From Dehalococcoidia bacterium (GTDB lineage: Bacteria > Chloroflexota > Dehalococcoidia > UBA2979): 64,000 nt of DNA. The position numbers were made by a program, and so were the translations under genes. The notes beneath the pieces were generated by a model that was not told the DNA's origin, did not search any database, and saw nothing but the letters and a program-made list of their open reading frames with translations. Below are positions 1 to 15,699 of this stretch, piece after piece. Position 1 is the stretch's first letter. Each line of letters begins with the position of its first letter. Location: contig JAPYRK010000001.1 of assembly GCA_029941115.1 (NCBI GenBank), forward strand, positions 1 to 64,000, written 5' to 3'.

Positions 1-819
1 GAAAAAAAGGGGATCACGTTTGATGTAGTCACTGACGAGGACCTCGACGACGAGGGCCTGGAATTACTTGAGAGCTACGACACCATCCTTACTGGTTCAC
101 ACCCGGAATATCATACGGCCAAGATGCTGGATTCCCTTCAAAGTTACGCCGATTCGGGTGGCAATTTGGTATACCTTGGGGGTAACGGTTTTTACTGGAA
201 AATCACACGTGTTCCTACTCTCCCAGGTGTTATCGAACTGCGTCGGGCCGAAGGTGGAATTCGTGCTTGGTCGCCTAAGCCTGGCGAATCTCACCACCAA
301 CTAGATGGTGGATATGGTGGGCTATGGAGGCGTAATGGGCGGCCTCCACAAAAACTTGTAGGTGTAGGTTTTTCAGCACAGGGGCTTTTTGAAAGTTCGT
401 ACTACAAACGAACACGTGAAAGTTACGATGAGGATGTGTCGTGGATTTTTGATGGTGTCAGTGAAGAGAAGCTAGGCAATTACGGGTTTAGTGGGGGAGG
501 CGCTGCGGGATTCGAACTCGATCGGGCAGACCAGGAGCTTGGCACTCCACCAGAGACGGTGATTCTTGCAGTAAGTGAAAATCATAGCGAGAGCTTTATA
601 GCAGTTCCGGAGGAATTACTCACTCACACTAGGACAGAAACTGGTGAAGACCCTGAAGATTTGATCCGAGCGGAAATAGTCTATTGTCCGAAGCCCAACG
701 GCGGTGCAGTATTTTCCGTTGGATCTATCTGCTTTTGCGGTAGCCTCAATCATAATGATGGGGATAATGGTGTTTCGAGAATGATCGAAAATGTCATTCG
801 CCGCTTCGCTTCTTTATAA
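1..819 (+). CDS. N,N-dimethylformamidase large-subunit-like protein (5'-truncated by the window edge)
   Basis: The reading frame is open from base 1 to the TAA at 817-819, giving the last 272 residues of a longer protein. The visible part has the character of the C-terminal domain of the N,N-dimethylformamidase beta (large) subunit family: an early stretch ending in a 'TGSHPEY' motif, a 'GGNLVYLGGNGFYW' glutamine-amidotransferase-like segment, and a tail about frequency of glycine-rich loops ending near 'NVIRRF'. The characterised family member hydrolyses N,N-dimethylformamide to dimethylamine and formate with a small alpha subunit. Many environmental homologues have unknown substrates, so hydrolysis of an N-substituted amide is inference. 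The N-terminal half, which carries the metal-binding residues, lies outside the window. The next gene is in the same direction, about 240 bp downstream. Confidence 0.72.
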   Translation, partial: EKKGITFDVVTDEDLDDEGLELLESYDTILTGSHPEYHTAKMLDSLQSYADSGGNLVYLGGNGFYWKITRVPTLPGVIELRRAEGGIRAWSPKPGESHHQLDGGYGGLWRRNGRPPQKLVGVGFSAQGLFESSYYKRTRESYDEDVSWIFDGVSEEKLGNYGFSGGGAAGFELDRADQELGTPPETVILAVSENHSESFIAVPEELLTHTRTETGEDPEDLIRAEIVYCPKPNGGAVFSVGSICFCGSLNHNDGDNGVSRMIENVIRRFASL

Positions 820-928
820 TCTAAGTCGCCAAATCGGTCAATTCTGGAAAAAGCATATCTATCCGCACATACCAGGTCTATACAGCCCCATTTCTTGGTA
901 TAATGGATAGATTCCATTCCAATACCAG

Positions 929-955
929 AGAGCCCTACGGGGCTCTTTGTTTTTG
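929..955 (+). terminator. Rho-independent terminator
   Basis: A perfect 7-bp stem (AGAGCCC at 929-935 with GGGCTCT at 940-946) closes on a TACG tetraloop and is followed by a T-rich tract to 954. This is a well-formed intrinsic terminator. It lies between the dimethylformamidase-like gene and the hydratase gene, so the two are probably not one transcript. Confidence 0.8.
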
Positions 956-1058
956 CCGTTCCTCACAGCAGTGCAAAACTCATTGGTTACCCCGTAGAGA
1001 ATCGAACGTAAGAAACGAATTCTCCAGATTTTGCTCTCGAATAGTTATTATTTCTGGT

Positions 1059-1889
1059 ATGTCACAAGAACGTATCGCTGAGTTTGTAGAAGAAAATGCT
1101 CACCTAACCGTTGAGAACGAGCGTTTAGCGGAACTGCTTACCGCCCTTCGTTTCGAGAACCGGCAGCAAAGTGGGTTGGCGTCCGACCTCGTTCCAGGCG
1201 ATACGGATGCGGCGTATCGAGTGTCGCGTGAGGTGTCGCGCCGCCTTGGCTGGAACGTCGCTGGATGGAAAATTGCAGCGTTTAAGCCGGAGATGCAAAG
1301 GCGGTTGCGGGCGAACGCACCGATCTACGGTCCCGTCTACGAGCCGCAGATCCACCTCTCACCGATGCGACTCGAAGGCCGCAGGCTGCTTCACCCCCTC
1401 GTCGAGGTTGAACTCGTGGTTCGATTGTCAGCACCCTTGCCTCCTCGGTCGTCTCCCTATCTGCGTAACGATATCGAGGACGCCGTAGGATCGATCCATC
1501 CGGGCCTCGAGATCGCCGAGTGCCGTTTCGCGCACGATGACCGCTTCCCGCCCTTGAATGCGATCCTTGCCGATGGAAGTGGATCGGGAACCCTCGTGCT
1601 CGGGGAAGCGATCGTCGGGTGGCGTTCCCACGATTTCAGCGCGGGCGATGCCGCTTTGCGCGTCAATGGCACTCAACGCCGTGAAGGGCGCATCTTCGAC
1701 GCGGTGGAGCACCCGCTCGCGCCCCTCGTTTGGATCGCCAACGAACTGTCTCGAGTCGGGGTCGGACTGCCTGCGGGCATATACGTCAGCACCGGTAGCC
1801 TAACCGGTATGTACCTGGCGAAACCGGGAGACGAGCTCACCGGCGATCTGGGTCCCTTGGGAGAAGTGCACGCGTTCGTAGGGGAATAG
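1059..1889 (+). CDS. 2-keto-4-pentenoate hydratase / fumarylacetoacetase-fold protein
   Basis: The 276-residue product resembles the MhpD-type hydratases, which add water to 2-hydroxypenta-2,4-dienoates in meta-cleavage pathways. Signs are a 'GWNVAGWKIAA' segment near residue 66, an E-x-E metal-ligand pair in 'HPLVEVEL' near residue 112, and a third acidic ligand region in 'HPGLEIAE' near residue 147. The chosen ATG at 1059 follows the terminator and excludes an implausible upstream extension; no clear ribosome-binding site precedes it. From about base 1150 the gene is markedly GC-rich (a sampled 60-base row is about 65% G+C) compared with the neighbours. It is followed by an integration scar, which fits acquisition by transfer. 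The true substrate is unknown; decarboxylase or isomerase members share the fold. Confidence 0.75.
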   Translation: MSQERIAEFVEENAHLTVENERLAELLTALRFENRQQSGLASDLVPGDTDAAYRVSREVSRRLGWNVAGWKIAAFKPEMQRRLRANAPIYGPVYEPQIHLSPMRLEGRRLLHPLVEVELVVRLSAPLPPRSSPYLRNDIEDAVGSIHPGLEIAECRFAHDDRFPPLNAILADGSGSGTLVLGEAIVGWRSHDFSAGDAALRVNGTQRREGRIFDAVEHPLAPLVWIANELSRVGVGLPAGIYVSTGSLTGMYLAKPGDELTGDLGPLGEVHAFVGE

Positions 1890-2001
1890 CCCCGGTTTTG
1901 CCTGGAGCGACCACCCCTCCCTCATAGTCGACGGGGGGTGCCTCCTCGCCACCTGCCTCCCCCTCCTCGAGCCGAGAACTCAGGAAAATATCTACAGCTA
2001 C

Positions 2002-2042
2002 TCCCCCATACAAGAAGAGGGCCAGCCGATCCTTCGACCTGC
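2002..2042 (+). repeat. 41-bp direct repeat, copy A
   Basis: The sequence from TCCCCCATAC to CTTCGACCTGC is identical over 41 bases to 11823-11863, in the same orientation and 9.8 kb away. In both places it is followed within a few bases by a paired 11-bp tandem repeat. A shorter piece of it, CCTTCGACCTGC, recurs at 45261-45272. Confidence 0.9.
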
Positions 2043-2064
2043 AGGGGGCAATTAGGGGGCAATT
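2043..2064 (+). repeat. 11-bp tandem repeat (two perfect copies)
   Basis: AGGGGGCAATT is present twice without a gap. Directly repeated units of 10-11 bp beside an attachment core are typical of arm-type binding sites of tyrosine recombinases. That role is inference; no integrase is encoded here. Confidence 0.75.
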
Positions 2065-2151
2065 GTTATTGATACCAGTTCATAGCATTCACAACAAACC
2101 CCAAAGTTTCAAGGGTTTAGTACACACAGTTCACATCATTCACCCATTAGA

Positions 2152-2194
2152 ACGAAGGCAGAGGTCGGAGGTTCGAATCCTCCCGGGCGCACCA
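2152..2194 (+). other. tRNA-Arg(ACG) 3' fragment, probable attachment-site copy
   Basis: Read from the anticodon ACG (2152-2154), the sequence has A37, A38, the 3' anticodon strand GGCAG, variable bases AGGTC, a perfect T-arm (GGAGG, loop TTCGAAT, CCTCC), the acceptor 3' strand CGGGCGC, discriminator A and encoded CCA. Upstream bases cannot form the 5' half of a tRNA. A 3' half without its 5' half is the usual mark of integration into a tRNA gene. The intact tRNA and the element should lie to the left, so the hydratase gene would be inside the element. Confidence 0.75.
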
Positions 2195-2203
2195 TACGTC
2201 GCT

Positions 2204-2227
2204 AAAGCCTATATATATCAAGGCTTT
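2204..2227 (+). terminator. Hairpin after the tRNA fragment
   Basis: AAAGCCT (2204-2210) pairs perfectly with AGGCTTT (2221-2227) around a 10-base AT-rich loop. The position, directly after the CCA end, suits the old terminator of the tRNA-Arg gene, carried with the 3' fragment. The following T-tract is short. Confidence 0.5.
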
Positions 2228-2268
2228 CTCCGCATAGCTATTTTCTAGCTTCAACAGAAAACTCTTTT

Positions 2269-2290
2269 TGTCCGCAGTTTGTCCGCAGAA
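2269..2290 (+). repeat. 11-bp tandem repeat pair (TGTCCGCAGTT / TGTCCGCAGAA)
   Basis: Two units share nine of 11 bases with no gap, and a weaker third unit (TGTCTGT...) follows. The layout matches the pairs at 2043, 11870 and 45058, though the unit sequence differs. It lies on the chromosomal side of the tRNA fragment, so it may belong to a second integration event at the same tRNA. Confidence 0.65.
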
Positions 2291-2421
2291 TGTCTGTAAC
2301 GGCTGTGATTCCTATTCTGATTCATCGAGCTGAGAAAATGAATAGGCGGTATGCTGCTCTCGAAATACGAAAATAGATATGCCATGAAAGAATCTGCCAG
2401 TAAATTTACGCTGTTTCCCAA

Positions 2422-3702
2422 ATGGTCAATAATATGAGTCCTGAAAACCGTGATTTGCCATCAACGGACAGTTCCCGAAACCCAGCTTTGATTGTTGCAA
2501 GTCAGAGGAACTTTCAATATTTTTGGATTGCTCAGTTCTTAATTCAGGTCGTCTGTGGGGCGATGAGATTTGCTTTCCTATGGCACGCACCGCAGCTTGG
2601 TGAAATAACTTGGACGGTGCCTCTACTCGGCTTCGCTACTAGTATTCCTGGACTTATAGTAGTGTTGCCGGTGGGCGCGATTGCTGACCGAACCAATCAC
2701 AAAACCTATTCCCTCGTGCTCAGTGTCGTTGCAACCGGGCTACTATTACTTACCGGTATTCTGTTAGTGCAGGATTCGCTAGATATATATTCCGCCTGCA
2801 TCTTAGCTTTGTTACTTGGCACCATACAGGCCGGTTCGCGGCCGGTTTTCCAGGCTATGGTACCCAAACTGGTTGAGAGTCGACTTCTTGCTACCGGCGT
2901 AGCTCTTCAAAATGTCGGTTCTATGGGCAGTCAGGTAATCGGAGCAATCATTGCTGGTGTCCTTATCAGTTTGATTGGTACTGGGTCCGCGTTTGTATTG
3001 TGGGGAGTACTGGCGTTTATAGCTTTTATCTCCTTTTATTTAATGAGCTATCCGAGCAGGAACCCCACAAACGAGAGCTACGCCCGTCCAACAATATTTT
3101 CAGGTATCTCTGATGGTATTCGCCTTTGTTTTTCTTCCACACCTATTAGGAGTCTAATCTTTGGTGGTTTTCTAATCGGAATTGGAGGTGGGGCCTGGAC
3201 AACGCTACTGCCCGAAATCGGACGTGATCAAATCGGTTTCGGGCCGGGGTACACCTCTCTACTGGCTGCTTTGGTTTCGGTAGGAATGATTTCATCAACT
3301 CTTTTTATAGCTACAAGAAGGCTGTTCAACAACAAAACTGTCTATTTCTTGATATCAGTAAACTGTTTCGGTCCGGGATTAATTTTCCTAGGCTTCACCC
3401 AAGAGCCAATTTGGGCCTTTACGTATATGTTTATTTCAGGATTGTATGCTGGGGTATTTCTCACTACTCAAAGAACCTTACTCCAAGAAAATGCTCCCAG
3501 TGATTTCGTTGCTCGAATAATGTCTTTGAATGTGTTCGTGAACGCCGGAACCGTGCCAATTTCGACAGGTATTATTTGGATACTAAGGCACATGTTCAGC
3601 AGTGGAGAAACTTTAGCAATTTTTGGACTTGCTGTAACGTTGTTATCGTTATTACTTACATTAAGTCGTAAATCGACCTGGGATAGACATTTCGACGCTT
3701 GA
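2422..3702 (+). CDS. MFS transporter (exporter type)
   Basis: The 426-residue protein is strongly hydrophobic with about 12 predicted membrane helices. It has the loop between helices 2 and 3 expected of the major facilitator superfamily ('GAIADRTNHK' near residue 92). The overall pattern resembles the MFS_3 / enterobactin-exporter-like group rather than sugar importers. An ATG at 2434 (second Met, residue 5) is an equally good start; neither has a strong ribosome-binding site. The gene stands alone just right of the integration scar and converges on a truncated pseudogene. The substrate cannot be told from sequence. Confidence 0.85.
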   Translation: MVNNMSPENRDLPSTDSSRNPALIVASQRNFQYFWIAQFLIQVVCGAMRFAFLWHAPQLGEITWTVPLLGFATSIPGLIVVLPVGAIADRTNHKTYSLVLSVVATGLLLLTGILLVQDSLDIYSACILALLLGTIQAGSRPVFQAMVPKLVESRLLATGVALQNVGSMGSQVIGAIIAGVLISLIGTGSAFVLWGVLAFIAFISFYLMSYPSRNPTNESYARPTIFSGISDGIRLCFSSTPIRSLIFGGFLIGIGGGAWTTLLPEIGRDQIGFGPGYTSLLAALVSVGMISSTLFIATRRLFNNKTVYFLISVNCFGPGLIFLGFTQEPIWAFTYMFISGLYAGVFLTTQRTLLQENAPSDFVARIMSLNVFVNAGTVPISTGIIWILRHMFSSGETLAIFGLAVTLLSLLLTLSRKSTWDRHFDA

Positions 3703-3705
3703 TCA

Positions 3706-3721
3706 AGTTCCGCGAGGAACT
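3706..3721 (+). terminator. Weak hairpin after the MFS gene
   Basis: AGTTCC and GGAACT form a perfect 6-bp stem with a GCGA tetraloop, four bases after the stop codon. Only a mixed CTCTATCTC follows, so it is a weak or factor-assisted terminator at best. Confidence 0.35.
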
Positions 3722-3768
3722 CTCTATCTCAGTCCAGCGTCTGATCTTCGGACGGTACTACTATCAGA

Positions 3769-4041
3769 TTAGACGGGAACCTTCTCTTTAAGCACCTCGT
3801 ACAGCTTGGACCAATCGGCAGTAGCGATTGGTCCAAGCTGTACGGTTCCAGACGCGCTGCCACCTTCAACTGATTCCTCATAAGAAAGATCGATTGGTCC
3901 CATCGGACCAACAACGTTGACTGTCCAAGATATGTTGTTACCGTCAGTAGTTCCTTCGAAGCTTGTTTCTCCGCCGTCAGGAATCTTTAAAGTTCCGTGA
4001 AGTACATTCCCTTCAACGGATAAGGTCGCTGCCGTTGGCGG
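3769..4041 (-). pseudogene. 5'-truncated small beta-rich protein gene
   Basis: On the minus strand a frame of 90 codons runs from just after an in-frame TGA (4042-4044) to the TAA at 3769-3771, with no start codon near its beginning. The translation (for example 'NVLHGTLKIPDGGETSFEG' and 'SGTVQLGPIATADW') matches, as I recall it, a small uncharacterised family of about 100 residues common in Actinobacteria and Chloroflexota, in which a 'PMG' strand pair and a 'VKLG.FG.A.FSGTR' ending are usual. The usual first 20 or so residues are absent. The last 12 codons after 'ADW' lie in an inverted repeat and look unlike the family. It sits downstream of lpdA on the same strand. Possibly a remnant, possibly using a non-standard start. 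Confidence 0.6.
3798..3844. repeat. Perfect 20-bp inverted repeat with 7-base loop
   Basis: CGTACAGCTTGGACCAATCG (3798-3817) is followed by seven bases and then its exact reverse complement (3825-3844). Both arms lie inside the pseudogene reading frame, where they encode the end of the conserved part and the aberrant tail. There is no T-tract on either side, so it is not a normal terminator. It looks like a template-switch duplication. Confidence 0.9.
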
Positions 4042-4119
4042 TCAAGCATTCGCGATTGAGACAATTATATTTAGTGACCGAAGCACTTAGCAATAATTCT
4101 AGTATCTGCTTCTAGATTC

Positions 4120-5532
4120 TCATCCACGCCCGATATGGTGAGAGCTTGTACCAAAAAATATTTCACTCGCCTCCATCAACGTTTCTGACAACGTCGGGTG
4201 TGGATGGACTGTCAACTTCAAATCTTGAAGTCGGGCGGCCATCTCAATCGCAAGTGTCGCTTCACCAATGAGCTCTGATGCTCCCTGCCCGACTATACCT
4301 GCGCCTACAACTCTTTCTGTTCCTGATTCAGATATAATTTTGGTCAGTCCACGAGACAGATTCGAGGCGATAGCCTTGCCTGATGAGGACCATGGAAATT
4401 TACTGACCACGACATCAAGTCCAAGTCGGCGCGCGTCAGTTTCAGTAATACCCGTCCACGCGATTTCTGGTTCAGTAAATACGACAGCTGGGATAACTGG
4501 TGGTTCCCATTCGCTAGGCAAGCCTGCAATCGCTTCGATCGCTACTCGAGCTTCGTGACTCGCCTTGTGAGCAAGCATCACTCCTCCCGTAACATCTCCA
4601 ATTGCAAATATATTCGAGAGATTTGTGCGTTTTTGCTTATCCGTTTGAATGAAGCCTGATTCAGTATACTCAACCCCTAGTTCGCTTAGGCCTAAATCCT
4701 CTACATTTGGCTCTCGACCTACAGATATAAGTACTCGATCGAATGGCATCTCGACAAGGTTTGGGTCTGGACCAGAAAAAGTTGCGATGATTCCATCTGG
4801 AGTCTCGACTAGTTGGGATACGGTCGTATTTAAACGGATACTCTCCACATAATCTTCTAACTGAAGAGTCATCACATCCACCAAATCAGAGTCAATCCCT
4901 GGAAGCAACGCGCTTGCTGCTTCGACAATAGTGATATGAGATCCTAGTGCTCCATACACGCTGGACATTTCCAGACCAACGTACCCACCACCTATAACTA
5001 AAAGTGAATCAGGTATCTCCGGTATAGAGAGTGCCTCCGTTGAATCCCAAATGTAATCTGAGTCCAGACGCAAATTCTCCGGCAGTACAGGCCTAGACCC
5101 AGTTGCCACAACCGCATAATCAAACTTAATGTCAATCAATTCGTCACTAGCATCAACTCGTAAAGTTTGATCGTCGAGAAATCGTCCACGTCCTTGCACA
5201 AAGGTCACATCACGCGCTCTTGCAATCTGAGAAAGCCCTCTCGTGAGTCTGCTAATGACTGTGTCCTTCCATCCCCGCAATTTATCGAGATCAATCTCAG
5301 GCGATGAAAAATGAATACCGAACGATGCAGCTTCGTGAGCCATATGCAGGCTATGTGTAGCGTGAAGCAATGCTTTAGAGGGAATACAACCATGGTGAAG
5401 GCATACACCTCCTGGCTGGGATTCTAAATCAACCAAAGTGACTTTCATGCCCATTTCACTTGCTAAAAACGCGGCAGGGTATCCGCCTGGACCAGCACCC
5501 AGAATCACAATATGAGGAGACAAATTAGACAT
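4120..5532 (-). CDS. lpdA: Dihydrolipoyl dehydrogenase (E3)
   Basis: This 470-residue flavoprotein reoxidises the dihydrolipoyl arm of E2 and passes electrons to NAD+. Visible features are the FAD-binding 'GAGPGGY' near residue 12, the redox disulfide in 'CLHHGC' near residues 47-52, the NAD-binding 'GGGYVGLEM' near residue 180, the second FAD motif 'IFAIGDV' near residue 310, and the catalytic His-Glu region 'HPHPTLSE' near residue 440. Length is normal for the family. The start ATG lies three bases after the stop of the E2 gene, so it is the last gene of the pyruvate dehydrogenase operon. The E3 may also serve other 2-oxo acid complexes elsewhere in the genome. Confidence 0.96.
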   Translation of the reverse strand: MSNLSPHIVILGAGPGGYPAAFLASEMGMKVTLVDLESQPGGVCLHHGCIPSKALLHATHSLHMAHEAASFGIHFSSPEIDLDKLRGWKDTVISRLTRGLSQIARARDVTFVQGRGRFLDDQTLRVDASDELIDIKFDYAVVATGSRPVLPENLRLDSDYIWDSTEALSIPEIPDSLLVIGGGYVGLEMSSVYGALGSHITIVEAASALLPGIDSDLVDVMTLQLEDYVESIRLNTTVSQLVETPDGIIATFSGPDPNLVEMPFDRVLISVGREPNVEDLGLSELGVEYTESGFIQTDKQKRTNLSNIFAIGDVTGGVMLAHKASHEARVAIEAIAGLPSEWEPPVIPAVVFTEPEIAWTGITETDARRLGLDVVVSKFPWSSSGKAIASNLSRGLTKIISESGTERVVGAGIVGQGASELIGEATLAIEMAARLQDLKLTVHPHPTLSETLMEASEIFFGTSSHHIGRG

Positions 5533-5535
5533 GAA

Positions 5536-6864
5536 TTACCTACCCATCGTTAGCATCATTGGGTTTTGAATCGCTCGTTCTATCCATTGCATAAATCGGG
5601 CGCCATCAGCGCCGTCGACAATTCGATGATCATGCCCAAGGGATAGCGGGATTTCAAGACCGGCAATCCAAGTACCATCATCCTGTAGCGATGGTACTTG
5701 TCTACTTCTTCCCACTCCAAGCACTGCTACCTCAGGGTAGTTGATAACAGGAGAGAAAAATTCGGTACCAAAACCACCAAGATTAGTGATGGTAAAGGTG
5801 CCGCCTTGAGAATCATCAAGCGAAAGATCATTATTTCGAGCCCGTGCACTGAGGTTCGTAAGTTCCACTGAAAGGTCAATGATGCTTTTTTTATCTACGT
5901 CGCGAATGACCGGCACGACCAAGCCTCGATCCGTGTCTATTGCCACTCCAATATGCACGTAATTCTTATAGATTATTTCTTCGCTCTGTAGATCAACACT
6001 GCTATTTATCAACGGATTTGCCTTGAGTGCAGCGGCCACAATTTTCAATATAAAGACGGTAATCGTTAGCTGTCCTCCTGCATCCTTGGCCTGCGCCTTA
6101 TATTTCTGACGAATATTTTCCATTTCAGTAATATCAATAGAGTGTTGTAGAGTCACATGTGGGATCGTAGTCCAACTCATAGACATATTTCTGCTAATTG
6201 TTCGCCTCAAACGGCTCATCGGTACCCGTGTTACATCACCAAAAACAGTAAAATCAGGCAATTTTTTGGTTTCGTTCAACGGTTGGGAATCCACGTTAAG
6301 AGAACGTGCTCGGACGACTAGTTTTATATCGTCTTCAGTGACTCTGCCACTATCACCTGAACCAGCCACCAAATCCAGTCCAACCCCTAATTCACGAGCA
6401 AATTTTCTTACTGAGGGCGCCGCTGATGGCCCAAAGCTAGTGGATAAGTCAGGTTCTACAAGCACATTAGGAGAAACTGATGGTACCTCAATTGGTTCAG
6501 AAATCTCTTCAGTTGCTAAATCTGAATTCTGATCAAAGTCAGTAGACACAGGTTCAACAACCTGTGTGTCTGGGATCTCTCTAGTTGAGTCAGCATCTGG
6601 AATCTTTGAGAGAATTACTTCTGACTTAGACTCCTGACTTAACACGAACAAAAGCTGTCCTACCTCAATTACTTGACCAGTAGATACCATGATCTCCGTG
6701 ACGTAACCTTCTATTTCCGATGGAACATCCAGTGTCGCTTTCTCGGTCTCAATTTCAAGAACTGAGTCATTTTCTCGCACGTAATCTCCGAGGTTAACCA
6801 GAATCTTAAGCACATCAGCGTCGAGAATATCCTCGCCCAACTCAGGTAACCTAATCTCACTCAT
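5536..6864 (-). CDS. aceF: Pyruvate dehydrogenase E2, dihydrolipoyl acetyltransferase
   Basis: The 442-residue protein has one N-terminal lipoyl domain (about residues 1-75, lipoyl lysine in 'ETEKATLD'), an acidic and serine/proline-rich linker, a peripheral subunit-binding domain near residues 145-185 ('APSVRKFARELGV'), and a C-terminal acyltransferase domain ending with the catalytic 'HDHRIVDGADGARF'. It transfers the acetyl group from E1 to CoA. The start is the ATG at 6864, preceded by GAGGA at a close spacing; a TTG one codon upstream is less likely. It lies 22 bases after aceE and three bases before lpdA. Having a single lipoyl domain is simpler than in E. coli, which has three. Confidence 0.95.
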   Translation of the reverse strand: MSEIRLPELGEDILDADVLKILVNLGDYVRENDSVLEIETEKATLDVPSEIEGYVTEIMVSTGQVIEVGQLLFVLSQESKSEVILSKIPDADSTREIPDTQVVEPVSTDFDQNSDLATEEISEPIEVPSVSPNVLVEPDLSTSFGPSAAPSVRKFARELGVGLDLVAGSGDSGRVTEDDIKLVVRARSLNVDSQPLNETKKLPDFTVFGDVTRVPMSRLRRTISRNMSMSWTTIPHVTLQHSIDITEMENIRQKYKAQAKDAGGQLTITVFILKIVAAALKANPLINSSVDLQSEEIIYKNYVHIGVAIDTDRGLVVPVIRDVDKKSIIDLSVELTNLSARARNNDLSLDDSQGGTFTITNLGGFGTEFFSPVINYPEVAVLGVGRSRQVPSLQDDGTWIAGLEIPLSLGHDHRIVDGADGARFMQWIERAIQNPMMLTMGR

Positions 6865-6886
6865 CAATTCCTCGCTAACCTAACTT

Positions 6887-9571
6887 TCAATCAACAGTTG
6901 CTGGATCGAGTTGACTGATATCAACGTTCAATTCATTAACATATTTTTGAAACTCTGAAACTAAAATCCGCTCATCTCTAAGCAATTGGGATAGTGCAGA
7001 AAAAACAATGTGATCTGCAGAGACCTCGAAGAAATCTCTGAGCTCCTCCCGCGTCGAACTGCGCCCAAAACCATCCGTCCCCAATGAAGTGAACGGAGCA
7101 TTCACATACTTTGCTACTGAATCAGGTAATGATTTTAAGTAGTCGGATGCAGCAATAACTGGCGCAGGTGAATCTCCTAAGCTGCACTCTAAAAATGATT
7201 TATGAGGCGTGGATTCTGGGTGTAGCCGATTCGATCGTTCGATAGATTGTGCGTCGCGTCTCAATTCGTTGTAAGAAGTAACTGACCATACATCGGCCTG
7301 AATCCCGTAATTCAGCAACGTCTGTTGAGCAGCGAGTGTCTCATTGAGGATCGCACCGCTCCCAAACAAGTTAATGTCCGGCCGATCGGTTTTTGAACAG
7401 GATTGCCTGAAACGGTATATCCCTCTTAGGACACCCTCTCTTACTTTATCGAAATCTCCGTCAGGAACAGGCGGTTGAACATAATTTTCATTACAGACGG
7501 TGAGATAGTAAAAAACGTCATCGCCTTCGTCATACATTCGTCTAATACCATCAGTCAAAATAATAGCAATCTCATAAGCAAAAGCTGGGTCATAAGAGAT
7601 TAGCGACGGAACAGTTGAGGCAAGAACCTGACTATGGCCATCCTGATGTTGCAGTCCCTCACCATTGAGTGTTGTGCGTCCGGAAGTCGCACCAATCAAA
7701 AAGCCTTTAACTCGAGCGTCGGCAGCAGCCATGACTAAGTCTCCAACTCGCTGCAAACCAAACATCGAGTAAAAAATAAAAAATGGAATAGTCGTAACTG
7801 CGTGCGTCATTTCTGATGTTCCTGCAGCTAAGAATGATGCGAGTGCTCCGGCTTCAGAAATCCCCTCTTGTAAAATTTGTCCCGTTTTACTTTCCTTGTA
7901 AAACAGTAATCCCCCCGCATCAACAGGTTCATATAACTGGCCTTTCGGTGCGTATATGCCAAACTGTCTGAAGAAACTATCTAGGCCAAAGGTTCTAGCT
8001 TCATCAGGAACAATTGGTACGATGCTACTGCCCAATAGGTCATCGCCCATTAAAGCAGCAAGCATCCGGACGAATACCATTGTGGTGGACGCTTCTCGTT
8101 CCCCAGAACCTAGATAAAAATCATCGAACAATCCCTCTGGAATTTTCGCGTTTAACGAGCGGGTCACTGTTCTTCTGGGTATAAATCCTCCTAATTTCTT
8201 TCGCCTATCAATTAGGTAGGTCATTTCCGGAGAATTATTTGCCGGTCGATAGAGTGGAGCTCCAATGACCTCCGCATCAGAGAGCGGTATTTCAAAGCGA
8301 TCTCTGAAATTTAGAAGTTCCTTTTCGTTTAGACGTTTCTGCTGATGAGTTATATTTCGTCCCTCACCAGACTCGCCAAGGCCATAACCTTTTATTGTGC
8401 GAGCAAGAATCACGGTTGGAGTACCCGAGTGACTCACAGCTGACTGGTAGGCGGCGAATACCTTGTCAGGGTCATGGCCACCAAGACGCATTCGCCAGAG
8501 TTCATCATCAGATAAATGCTCAACCATTCTCAAGAGGCGTGGATCTACCCCATAAAAATGCTCTCTAATATAGGCGCCGCCGGCAACGGTATATTTTTGA
8601 TACTCACCATCAACAATTTCACCCATCCGTTGGACCAACAAGCCTTCAGTATCCTCGTCCAATAGTGCATCCCACTCTTGACCCCAAAGCACTTTAATGA
8701 CGTTCCAACCGACTCCCCGGAAAACTGCTTCCAGCTCCTGGATAATTTGTCCATTGCCTCTAACAGGCCCATCAAGTCGTTGTAGATTACAGTTCACTAC
8801 GAAAATCAAGTTGTCCAAATTTTCTCTAGCTGCTAATGAAATGGCGCCAAGCGACTCTGGTTCATCAACTTCTCCATCGCCCAAAAAAGCCCATACTTTT
8901 TGTTTGGATTCAGCGATTAGGCCTCGCCCTTCTAAATACCGTGTAAATCTAGCTTGATAGATCGCTGAAAGAGGTCCTAACCCCATGGATACTGTCGGGA
9001 ACTGCCAATAGTCGGGCATCAATCGAGGATGTGGATATGACGGCAGACCTCCCCTCAATTCACGTCTGAAATTATGGAGCTTGTCTGGCTTAAGTCGACC
9101 CTCTAAATAAGATCGCGCATATATTCCAGGAGATGCATGACCCTGGAAATAAATAAGATCCGCTCCATCTTTGTACTCGTCCCCCTTAAAAAAGTGATTA
9201 AAGCCAATCTCCAATAACGTGGCCGCTGATGCGTAAGTCGAAATATGTCCGCCGATATCCTCAGAGGCCTGATTAGCTTCAACCACCATTGCCATAGCAT
9301 TCCACCGAATAAGACTCTTTATTCGTCTCTCCAAGAGTCGGTTCCCTGGAAACATGGGTTGGTGATGGTGGGAAATGGTGTTCACGTACGGGGTCTGCGA
9401 TGTGACCGGTAAGTGGATTCCCGATCGTTGTGCCTCTACTTGCAAACGGCTCAGGATTTCTGACGCTCGCTCGCCGCCCTGTTTCCGCTGCACATCACGT
9501 AGTGACTTAAGCCAGTCCTCGGTCTCAAGGCGCCGTGCTACTTGGTCATTGCCATCAACTAAATCCGACAT
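6887..9571 (-). CDS. aceE: Pyruvate dehydrogenase E1, homodimeric type
   Basis: The product decarboxylates pyruvate with thiamin diphosphate and loads acetyl groups onto the E2 lipoyl arm. With the ATG at 9571 it has 894 residues, close to E. coli AceE (887). The ThDP-binding motif begins with 'GDGEVDEPES' and ends at 'NCN', about 30 residues on. Other recognisable parts are 'SYPHPRLMPDYWQFPTVSMG' and 'QHQDGHSQVL'. An open frame continues upstream to 9754, but it has no family character, and a weak GGGA lies just before 9571. The gene is first in the operon aceE-aceF-lpdA and is transcribed divergently from lipB. The alpha2beta2 E1 type is not seen here. Confidence 0.95.
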   Translation of the reverse strand: MSDLVDGNDQVARRLETEDWLKSLRDVQRKQGGERASEILSRLQVEAQRSGIHLPVTSQTPYVNTISHHHQPMFPGNRLLERRIKSLIRWNAMAMVVEANQASEDIGGHISTYASAATLLEIGFNHFFKGDEYKDGADLIYFQGHASPGIYARSYLEGRLKPDKLHNFRRELRGGLPSYPHPRLMPDYWQFPTVSMGLGPLSAIYQARFTRYLEGRGLIAESKQKVWAFLGDGEVDEPESLGAISLAARENLDNLIFVVNCNLQRLDGPVRGNGQIIQELEAVFRGVGWNVIKVLWGQEWDALLDEDTEGLLVQRMGEIVDGEYQKYTVAGGAYIREHFYGVDPRLLRMVEHLSDDELWRMRLGGHDPDKVFAAYQSAVSHSGTPTVILARTIKGYGLGESGEGRNITHQQKRLNEKELLNFRDRFEIPLSDAEVIGAPLYRPANNSPEMTYLIDRRKKLGGFIPRRTVTRSLNAKIPEGLFDDFYLGSGEREASTTMVFVRMLAALMGDDLLGSSIVPIVPDEARTFGLDSFFRQFGIYAPKGQLYEPVDAGGLLFYKESKTGQILQEGISEAGALASFLAAGTSEMTHAVTTIPFFIFYSMFGLQRVGDLVMAAADARVKGFLIGATSGRTTLNGEGLQHQDGHSQVLASTVPSLISYDPAFAYEIAIILTDGIRRMYDEGDDVFYYLTVCNENYVQPPVPDGDFDKVREGVLRGIYRFRQSCSKTDRPDINLFGSGAILNETLAAQQTLLNYGIQADVWSVTSYNELRRDAQSIERSNRLHPESTPHKSFLECSLGDSPAPVIAASDYLKSLPDSVAKYVNAPFTSLGTDGFGRSSTREELRDFFEVSADHIVFSALSQLLRDERILVSEFQKYVNELNVDISQLDPATVD

Positions 9572-9688
9572 ACCAGTCCCTATATTTGAAATCATACGCC
9601 GTATGTCAAACATTTTTATTAACAATAATAGATAGTGCATATCACGCCGAGTAATAGCATTTTTGTGGAAATAGCATACCCTCTTAAC
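9572..9688. promoter_or_regulatory. Divergent control region of pdh and lip genes
   Basis: The 117 bases between the aceE and lipB starts are AT-rich and must hold both promoters, since the genes point away from each other. No clear -35/-10 pair or operator could be picked out. The shared region suggests that the complex and its lipoylation enzymes may be co-regulated. Confidence 0.5.
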
Positions 9689-10363
9689 ATGGGAACAGCT
9701 CGAGTCACAGTTCAGCACCAAGTCGAATATGCTGTAGGCCTTGATTGGCTGCACAAAGCATATCTATCTGTCCTAGATGGGCGAAAAGACTCAGCAAGTC
9801 AAATTGAGCAAATTGGATTCTTTGAACATAAGCCCGTATACACCTTGGGAGCTCGAGCAAATCGAACCAATCTAATAAGACCAGAAAATGAGCTCGCCGC
9901 CCCGCTAGTTCAAACCAGCCGCGGCGGCGATATCACCTTTCACGGCCCAGGACAAATCGTCTGCTATCCAGTGTTCGATCTAAATAGCAGGAAACTGAAA
10001 ATTGGTGAGTACATACGAGCTCTTGAATCCGTCATTATCGCTTCACTTCGTACAACAGGCTTGGATCCGAAGCGTATAGCAAATCTACCTGGAGTTTGGA
10101 TTGGAGAAAATAAAATTGCGGCCCTCGGAGTGCGGCTTCGTAACGGGATATCGCAACACGGATTTGCTATTAACGTAAGCACTGATCTTAGTTGGTACGA
10201 ATCAATTATCCCTTGTGGAATTGAAAATTATGGCGTGACATCAGTTGAAAAATTGGGCCTCAAAATAGAGTTTGATGAACTTATTGAGTGCCTCGCCACC
10301 AAACTTTGCAGCTATTTTGATATCCACTGCTATTCGCCCCTTGAAACAGTGCCTTATTCATAA
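9689..10363 (+). CDS. lipB: Octanoyl-[ACP]:protein N-octanoyltransferase
   Basis: LipB moves octanoate from acyl carrier protein to the lipoyl lysine of 2-oxo acid dehydrogenase E2 subunits and GcvH. The 224-residue product has the family signature 'RGGDITFHGPGQ' near residue 78, the conserved lysine in 'ENKIAALG' near residue 137, 'HGFAINV' near residue 156, and the catalytic cysteine in 'IIPCGI' near residue 172. I chose the ATG at 9689 because the upstream 18 codons to 9635 have no homology character and would crowd the divergent promoter; no ribosome-binding site is obvious. lipA follows after nine bases, and the target E2 is encoded next door. Confidence 0.94.
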   Translation: MGTARVTVQHQVEYAVGLDWLHKAYLSVLDGRKDSASQIEQIGFFEHKPVYTLGARANRTNLIRPENELAAPLVQTSRGGDITFHGPGQIVCYPVFDLNSRKLKIGEYIRALESVIIASLRTTGLDPKRIANLPGVWIGENKIAALGVRLRNGISQHGFAINVSTDLSWYESIIPCGIENYGVTSVEKLGLKIEFDELIECLATKLCSYFDIHCYSPLETVPYS

Positions 10364-10372
10364 AGGATTGCT

Positions 10373-11269
10373 ATGCGCTCCAGTACAGCCTCTCGCCCAG
10401 TCCATCAAAAAAAACCTAACTGGTTCAAAGCCAAATTCCCGACCGGAGAGCGATTCGCGGTAGTAAGAAATCTAGTCCGAGAACACAACTTAAGTACCGT
10501 TTGTGAAGAGGCCCGTTGTCCAAATATTGGAGAATGTTTCAACTCAGGTACTGCAACTTTTATGATTTTAGGTGACACATGTACACGTGCCTGCCGATAC
10601 TGTGCTGTTAATTCAGGACGTCCTGACCCCGTCGATCCACTCGAACCAATAAGGCTCAGTAAAGCCGTAAAAAAACTAGGCCTAGACTATGTCGTACTTA
10701 CATCGGTTGACCGGGATGATTTGAGCGACGGCGGGGCATCGGTGTTTGCCGCCTGCATTCGTTCAATCAAACATTTAAATCCATCTTGTCTGGTAGAAAT
10801 ATTAATCCCTGACTTTCAAGGAAACTTGTTAGCTCTGCATGAGGTTCTCAATGCAGAACCAGCTGTATTGAACCACAACATAGAGACCGTTAAAAGGCTC
10901 TATCCGGAGTTAAGGCCAAAAGGAAATTACTCCCTTGCCTTAAATCTATTCAGGCAGTCTAAGCAATACAACAAGACAATTCCGATAAAGAGTGGCTTGA
11001 TGGTTGGGATAGGTGAAACAATTCCTGAAATTCTTGAAACAATGAAAGATCTCAGGGACTCAGGAGTTGAATTACTAACAATTGGGCAATACTTACAGCC
11101 AACCCCAAAACATGTACCAATCTCTAGATTTGTCACTCCCCAAGAATTTGAAAGCTTCAAGAAGTTTGGGTACGATATCGGGTTTCGTCACATGGAGTCA
11201 GGACCACTGGTACGCTCTTCTTATCACGCAGCCAGCCAGGCGCAAGTGGCATCAAAGTTAAATCGTTGA
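10373..11269 (+). CDS. lipA: Lipoyl synthase (radical SAM)
   Basis: LipA inserts two sulfurs into the octanoyl chain to make lipoate. Both iron-sulfur clusters are visible: the auxiliary cluster ligands in 'CEEARCPNIGEC' near residues 44-55, and the radical-SAM CxxxCxxC in 'CTRACRYC' near residues 70-77. The conserved C-terminal 'RSSYHA' serine that completes the auxiliary cluster is also present. Length is 298 residues, typical. AAAGGA lies six bases before the ATG. It is the second gene of the lipB-lipA pair and converges on a thioredoxin-fold gene. Confidence 0.96.
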   Translation: MRSSTASRPVHQKKPNWFKAKFPTGERFAVVRNLVREHNLSTVCEEARCPNIGECFNSGTATFMILGDTCTRACRYCAVNSGRPDPVDPLEPIRLSKAVKKLGLDYVVLTSVDRDDLSDGGASVFAACIRSIKHLNPSCLVEILIPDFQGNLLALHEVLNAEPAVLNHNIETVKRLYPELRPKGNYSLALNLFRQSKQYNKTIPIKSGLMVGIGETIPEILETMKDLRDSGVELLTIGQYLQPTPKHVPISRFVTPQEFESFKKFGYDIGFRHMESGPLVRSSYHAASQAQVASKLNR

Positions 11270-11377
11270 TCGATCTCAAGAAATTCACATTCGATTCAGT
11301 TAGTTTCGCCAACGAAACCGACGGGGAGAGCAACGCCTTATTAGGCAACTGCGGGGCGATGGATATGCAGTCACCGT

Positions 11378-11671
11378 TTAGTGGAACAAGTTGTGGAGAT
11401 GGTTTCTTAAGATACGTTCGTTCGGAACTACTCCTTGTGAGAATAGTTTGCCATTGACCAGAACCACTGGCGGATGCCATCCTCCATGGATTAATGCTTT
11501 GGGAAGATTTTCCAGCCAAGGTTTTACTTCGATTTCAATATTTTCATAATCTGAAGTGATCTTTTCAATGAGTTGGTGGGTTAAATCACACTCTTTGCAC
11601 CAGCTGTCAGGGACATTGAAAAAGAATTGTTTCCCAGCTATTGGGAATAATGTAACAATGGATTTACTCAT
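11378..11671 (-). CDS. Small thioredoxin/glutaredoxin-fold protein
   Basis: This 97-residue protein has a WCxxC active site ('WCKEC', residues 24-28) after a first beta strand and helix. Near residue 67 a 'HPPVVLVNGKLFSQG' segment has the cis-proline and final strand pattern of glutaredoxin-like proteins. It could be a disulfide reductase or a redox carrier. The gene is tail-to-tail with lipA about 110 bases away; any link to lipoate or cluster assembly is only positional. Confidence 0.75.
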   Translation of the reverse strand: MSKSIVTLFPIAGKQFFFNVPDSWCKECDLTHQLIEKITSDYENIEIEVKPWLENLPKALIHGGWHPPVVLVNGKLFSQGVVPNERILRNHLHNLFH

Positions 11672-11822
11672 GCTGAGAGTGTAAACGTTTCCCCAGTAAT
11701 TTTTTCAAATTTTGTATGCATGTTTTATAAGCGAGTGCCCTCCCATACATAGGGGACGGGGAATCGCCTTTTGCCCTGGTACCCGCTCTTGCTTCGGGAT
11801 CTCGTTGAATGCCGCTGAGTAG

Positions 11823-11863
11823 TCCCCCATACAAGAAGAGGGCCAGCCGATCCTTCGACCTGC
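11823..11863 (+). repeat. 41-bp direct repeat, copy B
   Basis: Identical to 2002-2042. The two copies bracket the MFS gene, the pseudogene, the pyruvate dehydrogenase operon, lipB-lipA and the thioredoxin-fold gene. Confidence 0.9.
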
Positions 11864-11869
11864 CCCCTT

Positions 11870-11891
11870 TGTCCCACAAATGTCCCACATA
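11870..11891 (+). repeat. 11-bp tandem repeat pair (TGTCCCACAAA / TGTCCCACATA)
   Basis: Two adjacent 11-base units differ at one position. The unit is nearly the same as that at 45058-45079 (ATCCCACAAAC / ATCCCACATAA), 33 kb away. Arm-type recombinase binding sites are the best guess. Confidence 0.75.
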
Positions 11892-11983
11892 ACTCCAGAT
11901 AGACCTAGATCAACGTAGATCACCTATGAGACGCAACCCCTTATACAGTATGGGATACAAGATAATCCTGATAACCCCAAATA

Positions 11984-13618
11984 CTATTTGAAGACTGAAT
12001 AGGTGTGGTCCTGTTGAGTAATAAATTCAAGAAGCACAGCAGTACCCTCTTGCGTCTTTTGTATTCCTCGCTCGATTGCCGGAATGATATCCTCGGGTCG
12101 TTCTATTCGTTCACCATAACCGCCAAAAGCTTTAGCCATATCGGCATAATTACCTGAAATATCAGTCGATCCATATTTCTCGCGAGCTACCTGCATAATC
12201 GGCAACTCGATTGCCATCGAAAAATTATTAAACAGAATAGACAAAATTGGGATGTTCTCACGGACAGCCGTCTCAAAATCCATTCCTGTAAATCCAATAG
12301 CCGCATCACCCCATACATTTATACAAAGCTTATCCGGACGAGCCAATTTTGCGCCCATGGCTAGACCAAGTCCATACCCCAGTTGTGTGGTTTTTCCCCA
12401 GCCAATGTAGCTGAGCGGAACATCTGTAGTCCAAAACGGTGACAACTGATCTCTTGGACTACCAGCGTCATGCGTGATAATTGTGTTGTCTACATCCACT
12501 GTCGCATGCAAGTCACGGATAACTCTGTAAGGAGACAGTGGAGCACTGTCATCGTCAAGACGCGGCTGCCAGTCATTCAGCCATTCATCTCGAATGGAGG
12601 CAATTTCAGTCGCAATACCTTCGGCTCGCCCACGTCCGCCATCGCCTATAAGTGCACGAACCTCGCGAATGAGAGTGGTGAGTGTTAATTGTGCATCGCC
12701 AACTAATGGCTGCGTTACTTCAACTGTATTATCAAGGTCGAGTGGATCCAAAGTTGAATGAATCACGGTTTTACCTTTTGGGAATTGGATTCCAAATCCA
12801 GTTGCGAAGAATGAACAACCAATACCGAAAATAACGTCTGCTTTTTGAATAAAGTGATGGACCGGTTTCGGCAGTGCCCGTCCGCCCGAACCAAGTGCCA
12901 ACGGATGGGTTTCTGGAAACGCACTCTTCCCCTCAAGACTTGTTGTAACAGGCACCTCAAGTAACTCAGCCAGTTCTTTTAGTTCACCCCACGCTTTGGC
13001 GTAATGTACACCCTGTCCCGCATAAATTACCGGATTAGAAGCGCTCACGAGCATTTCCGCTGCTCTGGACACATCAGACGGATCAGGGGCAGATCGTGCA
13101 ACTTTCACAGGTGTATAGGACAACGATTCAATCTCTTCAGGAAATACATCAGTCGGGATTTCAATTACTGCCGGACGTGGTCGACCATTCCTCACGGCAC
13201 TAAATGCTCTACGCATTGCGTCTGGGATCGCAGACGACACAGTAACCTGCTCAACTGACTTCGCAACGTGCTGGAAGTTTAAAAGACTACTGAAATTAGG
13301 AGTGACATTCGTAAGCTTTCGATCATAACCGGCAGGAATTATAATGATCGGTACCGAGTCGCCATATGCTTGAGCGACTCCTCCAAACGCGTTCTCACTT
13401 CCAGGGCCGTGTTGCATTACAAAAACGCCGATTTCGTCACCCGAATTGATGCGACTAAAGGCGTCAGCCATATGAATACCAGTTCGCTCTTGTCGCACGA
13501 TAATCGTCCGTATGTCAGCTCGAGCAGCAGCTTCAATAATTGGATTCACTGGATATCCAACTATAAATTCAACGCCTTCTCGTTTTAATATTTCGGCTAT
13601 CGCATCAGAAACCAACAC
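11984..13618 (-). CDS. Thiamin diphosphate-dependent enzyme, acetolactate synthase-like
   Basis: The 544-residue protein has the three-domain layout of the acetolactate synthase / benzoylformate decarboxylase superfamily. The cofactor-activating glutamate is in 'RQERTG' near residue 43, a central domain follows, and a ThDP motif that begins 'GDAAIGFTG' and ends 'NN' lies near residue 440 (GDA rather than the common GDG). I chose the GTG at 13618 because a GGGGGA sits eight bases before it; the 32 codons upstream look non-coding. Acetolactate synthase proper is unlikely to be encoded alone without a regulatory subunit. Oxalyl-CoA, sulfopyruvate or other 2-oxo acid decarboxylation are alternatives. 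Confidence 0.82.
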   Translation of the reverse strand: MLVSDAIAEILKREGVEFIVGYPVNPIIEAAARADIRTIIVRQERTGIHMADAFSRINSGDEIGVFVMQHGPGSENAFGGVAQAYGDSVPIIIIPAGYDRKLTNVTPNFSSLLNFQHVAKSVEQVTVSSAIPDAMRRAFSAVRNGRPRPAVIEIPTDVFPEEIESLSYTPVKVARSAPDPSDVSRAAEMLVSASNPVIYAGQGVHYAKAWGELKELAELLEVPVTTSLEGKSAFPETHPLALGSGGRALPKPVHHFIQKADVIFGIGCSFFATGFGIQFPKGKTVIHSTLDPLDLDNTVEVTQPLVGDAQLTLTTLIREVRALIGDGGRGRAEGIATEIASIRDEWLNDWQPRLDDDSAPLSPYRVIRDLHATVDVDNTIITHDAGSPRDQLSPFWTTDVPLSYIGWGKTTQLGYGLGLAMGAKLARPDKLCINVWGDAAIGFTGMDFETAVRENIPILSILFNNFSMAIELPIMQVAREKYGSTDISGNYADMAKAFGGYGERIERPEDIIPAIERGIQKTQEGTAVLLEFITQQDHTYSVFK

Positions 13619-13799
13619 AGTACATATCCCCCTAATAAGCCCAAACACCGAGCTTGTTTGACAGTCTTGTAGCTTAAAAATTCTATAAGCTAATTGTTTT
13701 ATTATGAGCCTCAAGTTATACCAAGTAGTAGGTGTTTACAAGGCCAAGAAAAGATCTAATCCGACCAGCGCTATCTAATCTCGACGACCGTCTCTGTTT

Positions 13800-14771
13800 T
13801 TAATCTTTGATAGGTAAATTTGGCAACACGTCATCCGTAAAGCGGACAAAACTATCGTGGCTGAGTGGCGCGCACATCAAATAGTCGAGTCCTATTTCAT
13901 CCTGCAAGCGGAGGATTTCATCGACTACCTTTTCTTTCGTTCCATGGATCATCACCTTCTGCACGTACCGATCAACCGGATCCATATCTTCATCCGGGCG
14001 ATTGATGTAACTTCCAAGCATCCATTTCGCGCCCTGACTGGCTATTACCTCAGCTTCAGCATCAGTATCTGCTACTGCAATCAATCTTGCTGTTGGAAGA
14101 ATACGATTTTCGGTTGAGTGCCCATGTTCCCTCAATGTATCGAAAAATAACTGCCTCTTTTCACCAATTTCTTCATGACTTGAGTGGGGATCCATAAGAA
14201 TAGAAAAACCAAGCTTCGCTGCGGCCTCAATTGATTCTCGTGACGTCGCAGCCATCCATACGGGTGGGTGTGGGTCTTGCAGTGGTTTAGGAAGCACTTC
14301 AACATCCTCGAAATCCCAATATTTACCGTGATAGGTTAATTTCTCATTCTTCCAGGCTTCAACTACAATTTGGAAATTCTCTCTGAATTGCTCCCCGCCC
14401 GTCTCAGGCGTTACTCCGAAAACTTCATACTCTTTGCGGTCAAAACCGCGCCCGGCACCCCAGTTCACTCGACCACCAGAAAAATGATCGAGCAAAGCTA
14501 CTTCCTCAGCGATTCTTAGGGGGTGGTACATCGCTGCCAGCGTCACCCCCATTCCAATTCGAATATTTTGTGTCCTTGAAGCTACTTGGACTCCCATCAT
14601 ATGAACCGATGGACACACGGAATATGTTGAAAAATGATGCTCCGCTAACCATACACAGTCGTATCCTGTCTGATCCATGATCTCGATGCGAGATAATGCG
14701 CGTTCGTACACTTCGGGAAGCGGAACTCTTCTACCAGGCCATGAAAAAAACTGTAATGTACCTACATTCAT
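13800..14771 (-). CDS. Luciferase-like flavin-dependent monooxygenase
   Basis: This 323-residue protein belongs to the LLM class of F420/FMN-dependent TIM-barrel oxidoreductases. Evidence is the 'DCVWLAEHHF' segment near residue 38, 'RIGMGVTLAAMYHPLRIAEEVALLD' spanning residues 70-94, and 'GRVNWGAGRG' near residue 100. Such enzymes oxidise small organosulfur, amine or aldehyde substrates with reduced flavin supplied by a partner reductase. A strong GGGAGGAA lies seven bases before the ATG. No flavin reductase is adjacent, so the substrate stays open. Confidence 0.88.
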   Translation of the reverse strand: MNVGTLQFFSWPGRRVPLPEVYERALSRIEIMDQTGYDCVWLAEHHFSTYSVCPSVHMMGVQVASRTQNIRIGMGVTLAAMYHPLRIAEEVALLDHFSGGRVNWGAGRGFDRKEYEVFGVTPETGGEQFRENFQIVVEAWKNEKLTYHGKYWDFEDVEVLPKPLQDPHPPVWMAATSRESIEAAAKLGFSILMDPHSSHEEIGEKRQLFFDTLREHGHSTENRILPTARLIAVADTDAEAEVIASQGAKWMLGSYINRPDEDMDPVDRYVQKVMIHGTKEKVVDEILRLQDEIGLDYLMCAPLSHDSFVRFTDDVLPNLPIKD

Positions 14772-14838
14772 TCAAAATTCCTCCCTAGTCCTCAAGAAAT
14801 ATAACAGTCAACTAGTGGCGTAACAGTTTTTCACCCGA

Positions 14839-15591
14839 TTAATCTCTTACGAAAAACAGCTGGAACTCCAATATTCCATTATCTTCGATCGAAACAACCG
14901 ATCTTGAGGACGGCTGCTCAATGTCATAATCTGCAAACAAAATCGGGTAGGATCCGACAATTACAAGAACTTCGTCCACTAATGTTCCTTCAATCGTTAT
15001 AACTACCTGATTCGGCACTCCATGCAGCGTCAACGTTCCAACAACCGCATAGGATTCCGAAATTCCAGTCTTATAGTCCGCTGTTATCTGAATTTCATCA
15101 ACTAACTTGAAATCCGCTTGAGGAAATAAATCCGTCTCAATGGCCTGACTTCGCAGCGCTCGGTCCCTGTACTGACTATCGCTAGTGAGCGACCTCAAAT
15201 CAGCAATTATATTAACAGATAGTACCTTCGTCCCGTCAAACTCCAAAGTAGCCTCAATATTTGACGTTCTGCCGACCGCCGTGAATTCACCAAGTCTGTT
15301 GAGAATCTCGTTTACTCGGTACCCGACAAATGAATCTTGTGAGTCGGACAAGACCCAACTTCCCACTAACGACTGCTCCTCAGGTTCCTTGGTTTCTGTC
15401 GCCAGCGGCTGTGTGGCCGAGTTAGTTGTAATTGACGTGGACGAGGCAACAGATGCCACAGCTGCTTGCAATGACACCTCCTCTTCCACTGACCGAAATA
15501 CAAATAAGTACAAGAAAGCAACGATCGCAACTAGACTGAGAACAGCAAAAATTGCAAAAGAGATAAATACTTTGGACTTAATTTTTTTCAT
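14839..15591 (-). CDS. Membrane-anchored YceI-domain protein
   Basis: The first 35 residues give a short basic start and one hydrophobic segment, so the rest should lie outside the membrane. A Ser/Thr-rich linker (about residues 40-75) leads into a YceI beta-barrel domain (about 77-248), recognised by 'SFVGYRVNE', a central 'VNIIADLRSLTSD..YRDRALRS' region and 'GTLTLHGV' near residue 187. YceI proteins bind polyisoprenoids or other long lipids in a barrel. The 250-residue length is that of a YceI domain plus anchor. It is divergent from the amidohydrolase gene. Confidence 0.85.
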   Translation of the reverse strand: MKKIKSKVFISFAIFAVLSLVAIVAFLYLFVFRSVEEEVSLQAAVASVASSTSITTNSATQPLATETKEPEEQSLVGSWVLSDSQDSFVGYRVNEILNRLGEFTAVGRTSNIEATLEFDGTKVLSVNIIADLRSLTSDSQYRDRALRSQAIETDLFPQADFKLVDEIQITADYKTGISESYAVVGTLTLHGVPNQVVITIEGTLVDEVLVIVGSYPILFADYDIEQPSSRSVVSIEDNGILEFQLFFVRD

Positions 15592-15699
15592 ACTCTAACT
15601 TTACATAATATTTTCTTATGCTCCTTAGGAACTCATTACACTAGAGGCATAGCCGTTTCAAAAAAACCATTGGCAGTTTTATTGTTAGTTTGGAGACTC

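Follow-up and report, generated by a model that had tools for sequence, protein, structure and literature searches.

A displaced tRNA-Arg(GCG) 3' half as a scar of site-specific integration in a Dehalococcoidia genome

Repeats of tRNA 3' ends are described at the ends of inserted cassettes in Actinomarinales (PMC7771536), in Candidatus Methylopumilus, whose islands can be as small as 330 bp (PMC10872708), and in Alteromonas (PMC4119200). The locus studied here resembles these additive flexible islands, as described, in its cassettes at tRNA genes, 3'-end repeats, variable cargo, exchange between lineages, and streamlined marine host. It differs from those descriptions in three aspects. Several Arg tRNAs of one genus share arms and paired repeats, which those accounts, in the portions covered, do not mention; the host belongs to Dehalococcoidia; and a near-identical copy of one cargo gene exists in another phylum. 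Additive islands at tRNA genes are already published. What is new is the host group, the loss of the integrase, and the cross-phylum cargo.

Other described systems share part of this architecture. The CIMEs and tandem accretions described in PMC5704250 likewise have integrase-less ends and, where two elements share one target, an internal att site separating them. However, we found neither a resident ICE nor a resident IME, and the cassettes go down to one gene. The attP of prophages (PMC2951348), as in the viral stretches L196 and L197, presents a tRNA 3'-end core between repeated arm sites, which are putative in our case. In tyrosine integrases of this kind, one domain binds the core sites and the other the arm sites (PMC2951348). 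Unlike in L196 and L197, where an integrase gene adjoins the site, none adjoins the scar. Tycheposons, as presented in PMC10872708, are also tRNA-bordered cargo elements of marine plankton. Nevertheless, they are described there with a tyrosine recombinase, and none was seen in the element at the scar. In the portions covered of the SAR202 literature on genomic islands, integrases, and the flexible genome (including PMC10444878 and PMC11994032), we found no such islands. The account of one SAR202 isolate reports predicted genomic islands and, in the portions covered, does not mention tRNA ends (PMC10444878).

The genome under study (G000) is a metagenome-assembled genome (MAG) of 1.9 Mb in 56 contigs, about 93% complete. 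The window is the initial 64 kb of its contig C1 (165 kb), and window base 1 is the first base of C1. ARAGORN calls four tRNAs in the window. The host of this contig is probably of the SAR202 type. Three relatives belong to the same genus (G001, G002, and G003), and G004 to the same family. G000-G003 and the other genomes compared are all MAGs in contigs.

The locus presents a tRNA 3' half with an arm on each side and mobile cargo on the left, and the architecture recurs at other Arg tRNAs of the genus. The features at the half are the following.

2044-2064, + strand: left direct-repeat pair with an 11-bp period, putative integrase arm-type sites
2096-2119, + strand: hairpin-forming motif AAACCC..GGGTTT of the left (P) arm
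2153-2194, + strand: displaced 3' half of tRNA-Arg(GCG), candidate att core (98% to the intact gene; no tRNA call)
2204-2227, + strand: hairpin just 3' of the half, either P' arm or former terminator of the tRNA
2267-2288, + strand: right direct-repeat pair with an 11-bp period, putative arm-type sites

The stretch 2153-2194 is a scar of site-specific integration into tRNA-Arg, and it is probably no simple island edge. Of its 42 bases, 41 agree with the intact tRNA-Arg of the same genome (contig C20, 22363-22439); the single mismatch leaves 98% identity, with an E value of 1.3e-14. The similarity begins inside the anticodon loop and runs to the CCA, including the T arm and the 3' acceptor strand. 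The original prediction described this fragment at 2152-2194, with a downstream hairpin and no 5' half, and predicted an intact tRNA-Arg with the same 3' end to its left, where C1 has no bases before the window. Most of this stands. The 3' part of a tRNA-Arg is there, the hairpin is present, ARAGORN calls no tRNA at the fragment, and the intact gene is the one on C20, which supports an origin by site-specific integration. The extent requires a correction: the start is 2153, and base 2195 also matches the intact gene. The anticodon was wrongly given as ACG. That string, at 2152-2154, straddles the start of the tRNA similarity. The intact gene on C20 and the copies in G001, G002, and G003 have GCG (ARAGORN), and no ACG tRNA-Arg appears among the 35 scanned tRNA matches of G000 (of 37). 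The GCG loop is identical in the 25 of 30 family copies readable in register; the other five are slices out of register and were left unread. As a side observation, the CGY-reading tRNA-Arg is of the GCG type in G000-G003 and in these 25 copies, and no ACG type was seen in them. It is hardly credible that the fragment is a chance or tRNA-like sequence with no history of recombination. The E value of its match to the genome's own tRNA speaks against it, and so does the reversed T-arm/CCA control pattern, which gives 0-1 matches per strand per genome.

Integrase arm sites are often paired, about 11 bp apart. Exact pairs of 9-mers at period 11 occur three times in the 64 kb, and a Markov-1 model gives a mean of 0.175 and a maximum of 1 (40 runs). 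The other periods from 9 to 30 yield 0 or 1 exact pair in the window. Two of the three pairs flank the tRNA half, 88 bp to the left and 72 bp to the right of the core, and these two are unlike in sequence. We infer from the sequence that the pairs may be arm-type sites of tyrosine integrases. A lambda-type attP has paired repeats on both sides of the core and an adjoining integrase gene. The paired repeats are found here, as putative arm sites known from sequence, and the ORFs of window 1-16000 include no adjoining integrase gene.

Each arm has relatives at other tRNA sites. A mini-element on contig C95 of G002 has a tRNA core and cargo unlike those of the scar, and its right end shares 77% identity (74 bp) with the left arm (2046-2119). 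Taken with the core, the right arm shows 89% identity across 134 bp with the intact tRNA-Arg(GCG) and its flank in G003. The corresponding values are 90% (91 bp) for G002 and 85% (71 bp) for G001. The hairpin lies at an equal position after the intact tRNA-Arg(GCG) of G001, G002, and G003, and hairpin-bearing flanks of like kind also follow the CCT and TCT Arg tRNAs.

We surveyed repeat pairs in 28 att-site stretches, which are hand-picked end stretches of unequal length. Perfect pairs are present in 8/28, weak pairs in 4/28, and none in 16/28. Two of the eight perfect pairs have period 12 and lie on the 5' side of the intact tRNA-Arg(TCT) of G034 and G029. The background of 259 windows gives no perfect pair and six with at least 8/9. 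Perfect pairs are missing in the right flanks of the intact tRNA-Arg(GCG) in G000-G003, at both ends of the integrase-bearing island of G004, and at a gammaproteobacterial hydratase locus. Two side observations concern tRNA flanks. In G029:C6 and G034:C41 (L151 and L150), an integrase-family match ends about 140 bp before tRNA-Arg(TCT). Behind tRNA-Lys(CTT) on C18 of G000 (L178, 224-424) there are a hairpin and a weak 11-bp-period pair, possibly a further hotspot.

The DNA to the left of the half holds two genes.

1-819, + strand: N,N-dimethylformamidase-like gene, of which the contig end leaves only the 3' part (Pfam DMFA2_C)
1102-1924, + strand, coding to 1889: hydratase cargo of the FAA_hydrolase family, with a 3' tail (Pfam, nucleotide identities)

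On sequence grounds, the hydratase beside the scar is mobile cargo. Its GC content is 0.62, and the maximum is 0.53 in 303 equal-size windows of the rest, in agreement with the suggestion that this GC-rich gene was transferred. Its nucleotide identity is 95.2% to G002 and 96.4% to G003; the corresponding values are 67.9% and 68.7% for a chromosomal gene that lies upstream of the tRNA pair. Close relatives occur in only two (G002 and G003) of 59 other genomes of the class, where four further matches have 26-32%. In G002, the intact tRNA-Arg(GCG) precedes the hydratase by about 440 bp. In G003, it is on contig C38 with no tRNA nearby and a weak repeat pair on its left. A gammaproteobacterial MAG (NZNP01000083.1) carries a copy at 93.7% identity, about 45 bp behind tRNA-Phe, with no displaced tRNA-Phe end behind it. 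Likewise, an alpha/beta hydrolase follows tRNA-Arg(GCG) in G001-G003, and in G000 the same hydrolase is found behind the displaced tRNA-Arg(TCT) half. These placements indicate that cargo moves among Arg tRNA loci and beyond. One cargo gene is thereby found at tRNA genes of two phyla. As a separate observation, a T-arm/CCA pattern match occurs upstream of the hydratase (984-1007, minus strand). Its T stem is unpaired, and the match is probably due to chance.

Displaced halves are also present at other Arg tRNAs of G000. On C27, an intact tRNA-Arg(CCT) lies 12.6 kb from the half. On C12, the half is about 230 bp behind tRNA-Arg(TCT), and a further one is on C22. Repeats of tRNA 3' ends separate cassettes on C27, C12, C22, and C1 of G000, and on C95 of G002. 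The last of these is a complete 2.04-kb element with both ends and a single gene of 577 amino acids. It consists of the intact tRNA-Arg(TCT), a repeat pair, the gene, a second repeat pair, and the displaced half. As in a CIME, it keeps the att ends and has lost the genes for integration and transfer. The classical form is found in G004:C37, where a Phage_integrase gene adjoins tRNA-Arg(TCT) and the displaced half lies 17.6 kb on, at 18863.

The original prediction also advised looking leftwards for an integrase gene, and an integrase beside the fragment finds no support. Two PF00589 genes are present in each of the genomes G000-G003, which we take to be XerC and XerD (Xer-like), and both integrase-family genes of G000 are on C3. 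The PF00589 search finds none inside the element at the scar, in an assembly that is about 93% complete, and none in the C27 element.

The tRNA-Arg(TCT) site allows a comparison between relatives. As far as the CCA, the left flank in G001 is collinear with C12 of G000 (84%, 7 kb); the right flank continues on C22, behind the displaced half. Both parts lie close to contig ends in G000, the intact tRNA to the end of C12 and the displaced half to the start of C22. The site is nearly empty in G001 and occupied in G000, with the interior lost between contigs. The comparison of G001 with G002 and G000 reveals insertions at the tRNA end. Similarly, as in additive islands, tRNA-Arg(GCG) is followed by four different gene sets in G000-G003.

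The following features bear on the DNA to the right of the scar.

1999-2042, + strand: first copy of a 44-nt module end, direct repeat of 11820-11863
2422-3702, + strand: MFS transporter, first gene right of the scar (Pfam MFS_1)
4024-4082, + strand: orphan tail of a DoxX-like gene, beside lpd (54/59 bases equal the end of the full gene on C14 of G000)
4120-11671, - strand, with lipB and lipA on the + strand: pyruvate dehydrogenase (PDH) and lipoate module (ORFs, Pfam)
11820-11863, + strand: second copy of the 44-nt module end
11868-11889, + strand: third repeat pair of the window, directly after the second 44-nt copy

This DNA is a mosaic. The order is the MFS gene, a broken reading frame, the DoxX-like tail of 59 bases, and the PDH and lipoate genes. 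Homologues of the MFS transporter (47-51%) occur in G001, in G002, and twice on C43 of G000, and none is at this locus. We take the gene with a tail here and a full copy on C14 to be DoxX-like; DoxX and lpd are adjacent in G001. In the PDH module, Pfam supports lpd, E1, and a thioredoxin-like protein, and the other genes carry the names we presume from general knowledge. A close lpd is found only in G000, G001 (86%), and G014 (59%) among the seven genomes searched. The two 44-nt copies are 98% identical and constitute the sole direct repeat of at least 22 nt in the window. Each directly precedes an 11-bp-period pair. They are 9.8 kb apart, with the PDH and lipoate genes between them. No third copy exists in G000-G003, apart from an 18-nt match in G002, and no tRNA end is present at the right boundary of the PDH block. 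Two details stand by themselves: the orphan DoxX-like tail resembles the boundary of a second insertion or rearrangement, and a strong inverted repeat (3798-3844, a hairpin with a stem of about 20 bp) lies inside the broken reading frame.

These data can be compared with a classical island edge, as put forward in the original prediction. In that case, one element would start at the tRNA-Arg(GCG) of C20 and end at 2152, and the DNA from 2195 onwards would be the native flank with its terminator. The bases after the half do resemble those after the intact tRNA-Arg(GCG) of G001-G003, over 28-91 bp, and the stretch 2195-2286 could be an old native flank. Moreover, G000 displays precisely such a split at tRNA-Arg(TCT), with the intact gene on C12, the displaced half on C22, and both flanks collinear with G001. 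However, hairpins of that kind are also behind other Arg tRNAs, hence not specific to the GCG flank. The right side of the scar has a repeat pair like those of element ends, and the block of MFS gene, DoxX tail, and PDH genes is nowhere beside tRNA-Arg(GCG) in the three relatives. Finally, C20 makes an unlikely left end for an island that stops at 2152, because the genus-typical genes of G001-G003, presumably Crp, a dehydrogenase, and a TPP enzyme, resume there about 2.3 kb after the tRNA-Arg. We consider the classical edge unlikely. Outgroup synteny was tried as a guide to the native flank and dropped: in G024 the pair of tRNA-Leu and tRNA-Arg lies near what we take to be uvrC, xerD, and enolase, and L173 of G014 matches, while in G000 xerD and enolase are on C3, away from the tRNA.

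Because both sides of the fragment carry attachment-site arms, base 2195 more likely opens another module than a stretch of native DNA. The mosaic right side and the 44-nt repeats before the pairs lead us to interpret the scar as the place where two modules meet. Our preferred reading, with a probability of about 0.65, is the att core of a tyrosine recombinase at the 3' end of tRNA-Arg(GCG), at which two modules meet within an additive island with cargo swapping. A tyrosine recombinase would have integrated DNA at this 3' end, leaving the core at 2153-2194, and the repeat pairs would act as its arm-type sites. The left module would probably be a hydratase cassette, and the right one would be headed by the MFS gene. 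The two may have come together by tandem accretion, or the scar may be the attP of a re-inserted circle. The integrase might have acted in trans or been lost since. The outcome would be an additive island whose cargo genes are exchanged among Arg tRNA loci. This anatomy of core, paired arm repeats, and single-gene cargo offers a testable scheme for the gain and swap of genes in uncultured bacteria poor in mobile elements.

An assembly chimera would produce a similar junction, if two places with a common 42-base tRNA end had been misjoined in the MAG. The assembly has 56 contigs, its island contigs break near displaced halves (C12, C22, and C1), and C14 and C43 overlap exactly by 55 bases, as contigs broken at a k-mer typically do. 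Nevertheless, the half and the intact gene are not fully identical, with one base different, and each arm is matched independently in other genomes. The 42-base repeat is also shorter than the apparent k-mer length, as far as this can be deduced. A misjoin is quite improbable.

The origin of the cassettes can be framed more broadly. They might be a family of non-autonomous units of one to a few genes in marine Dehalococcoidia, with full arms (tRNA core and 11-bp-period pairs) and no integrase, moved in trans by integrases of passing phages or other elements, stacked at several Arg tRNAs, and taking metabolic genes across phyla. We propose this only tentatively. If cassettes did move in trans, they would escape any search for mobile elements that relies on integrase genes alone.

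We searched two exact repeat-pair patterns in the IMG/VR viral contigs and obtained 20 stretches. They contain five tRNA 3'-end patterns in all, each within 150 bp of a pair (5/5), and 15 of the 20 stretches lack a tRNA 3' end. The GGGGGCAA-type pattern accounts for four of the five ends, with tRNA ends in 4/4 stretches. Three of these stretches share one tRNA-Met end and may thus come from related phages. By model search, tyrosine recombinases are present in L196 and L197, at 123 and 237 bp from the pair, and in none of the other 18 stretches; Pfam reports Phage_integrase in both. In several other viral stretches, the repeat lies within palindromic arrays of a different kind. An unrelated motif, the hairpin of the left arm, matches 13 viral stretches, and no tRNA end occurs in their 115 kb. 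A search of the viral contigs for the hydratase finds none. The exact tRNA 3' end is found in them twice, both times inside intact tRNA genes. Separately, a phage-like IMG/VR contig ends in three tandem, near-identical tRNA-Arg(ACG) genes (L168, 17-299).
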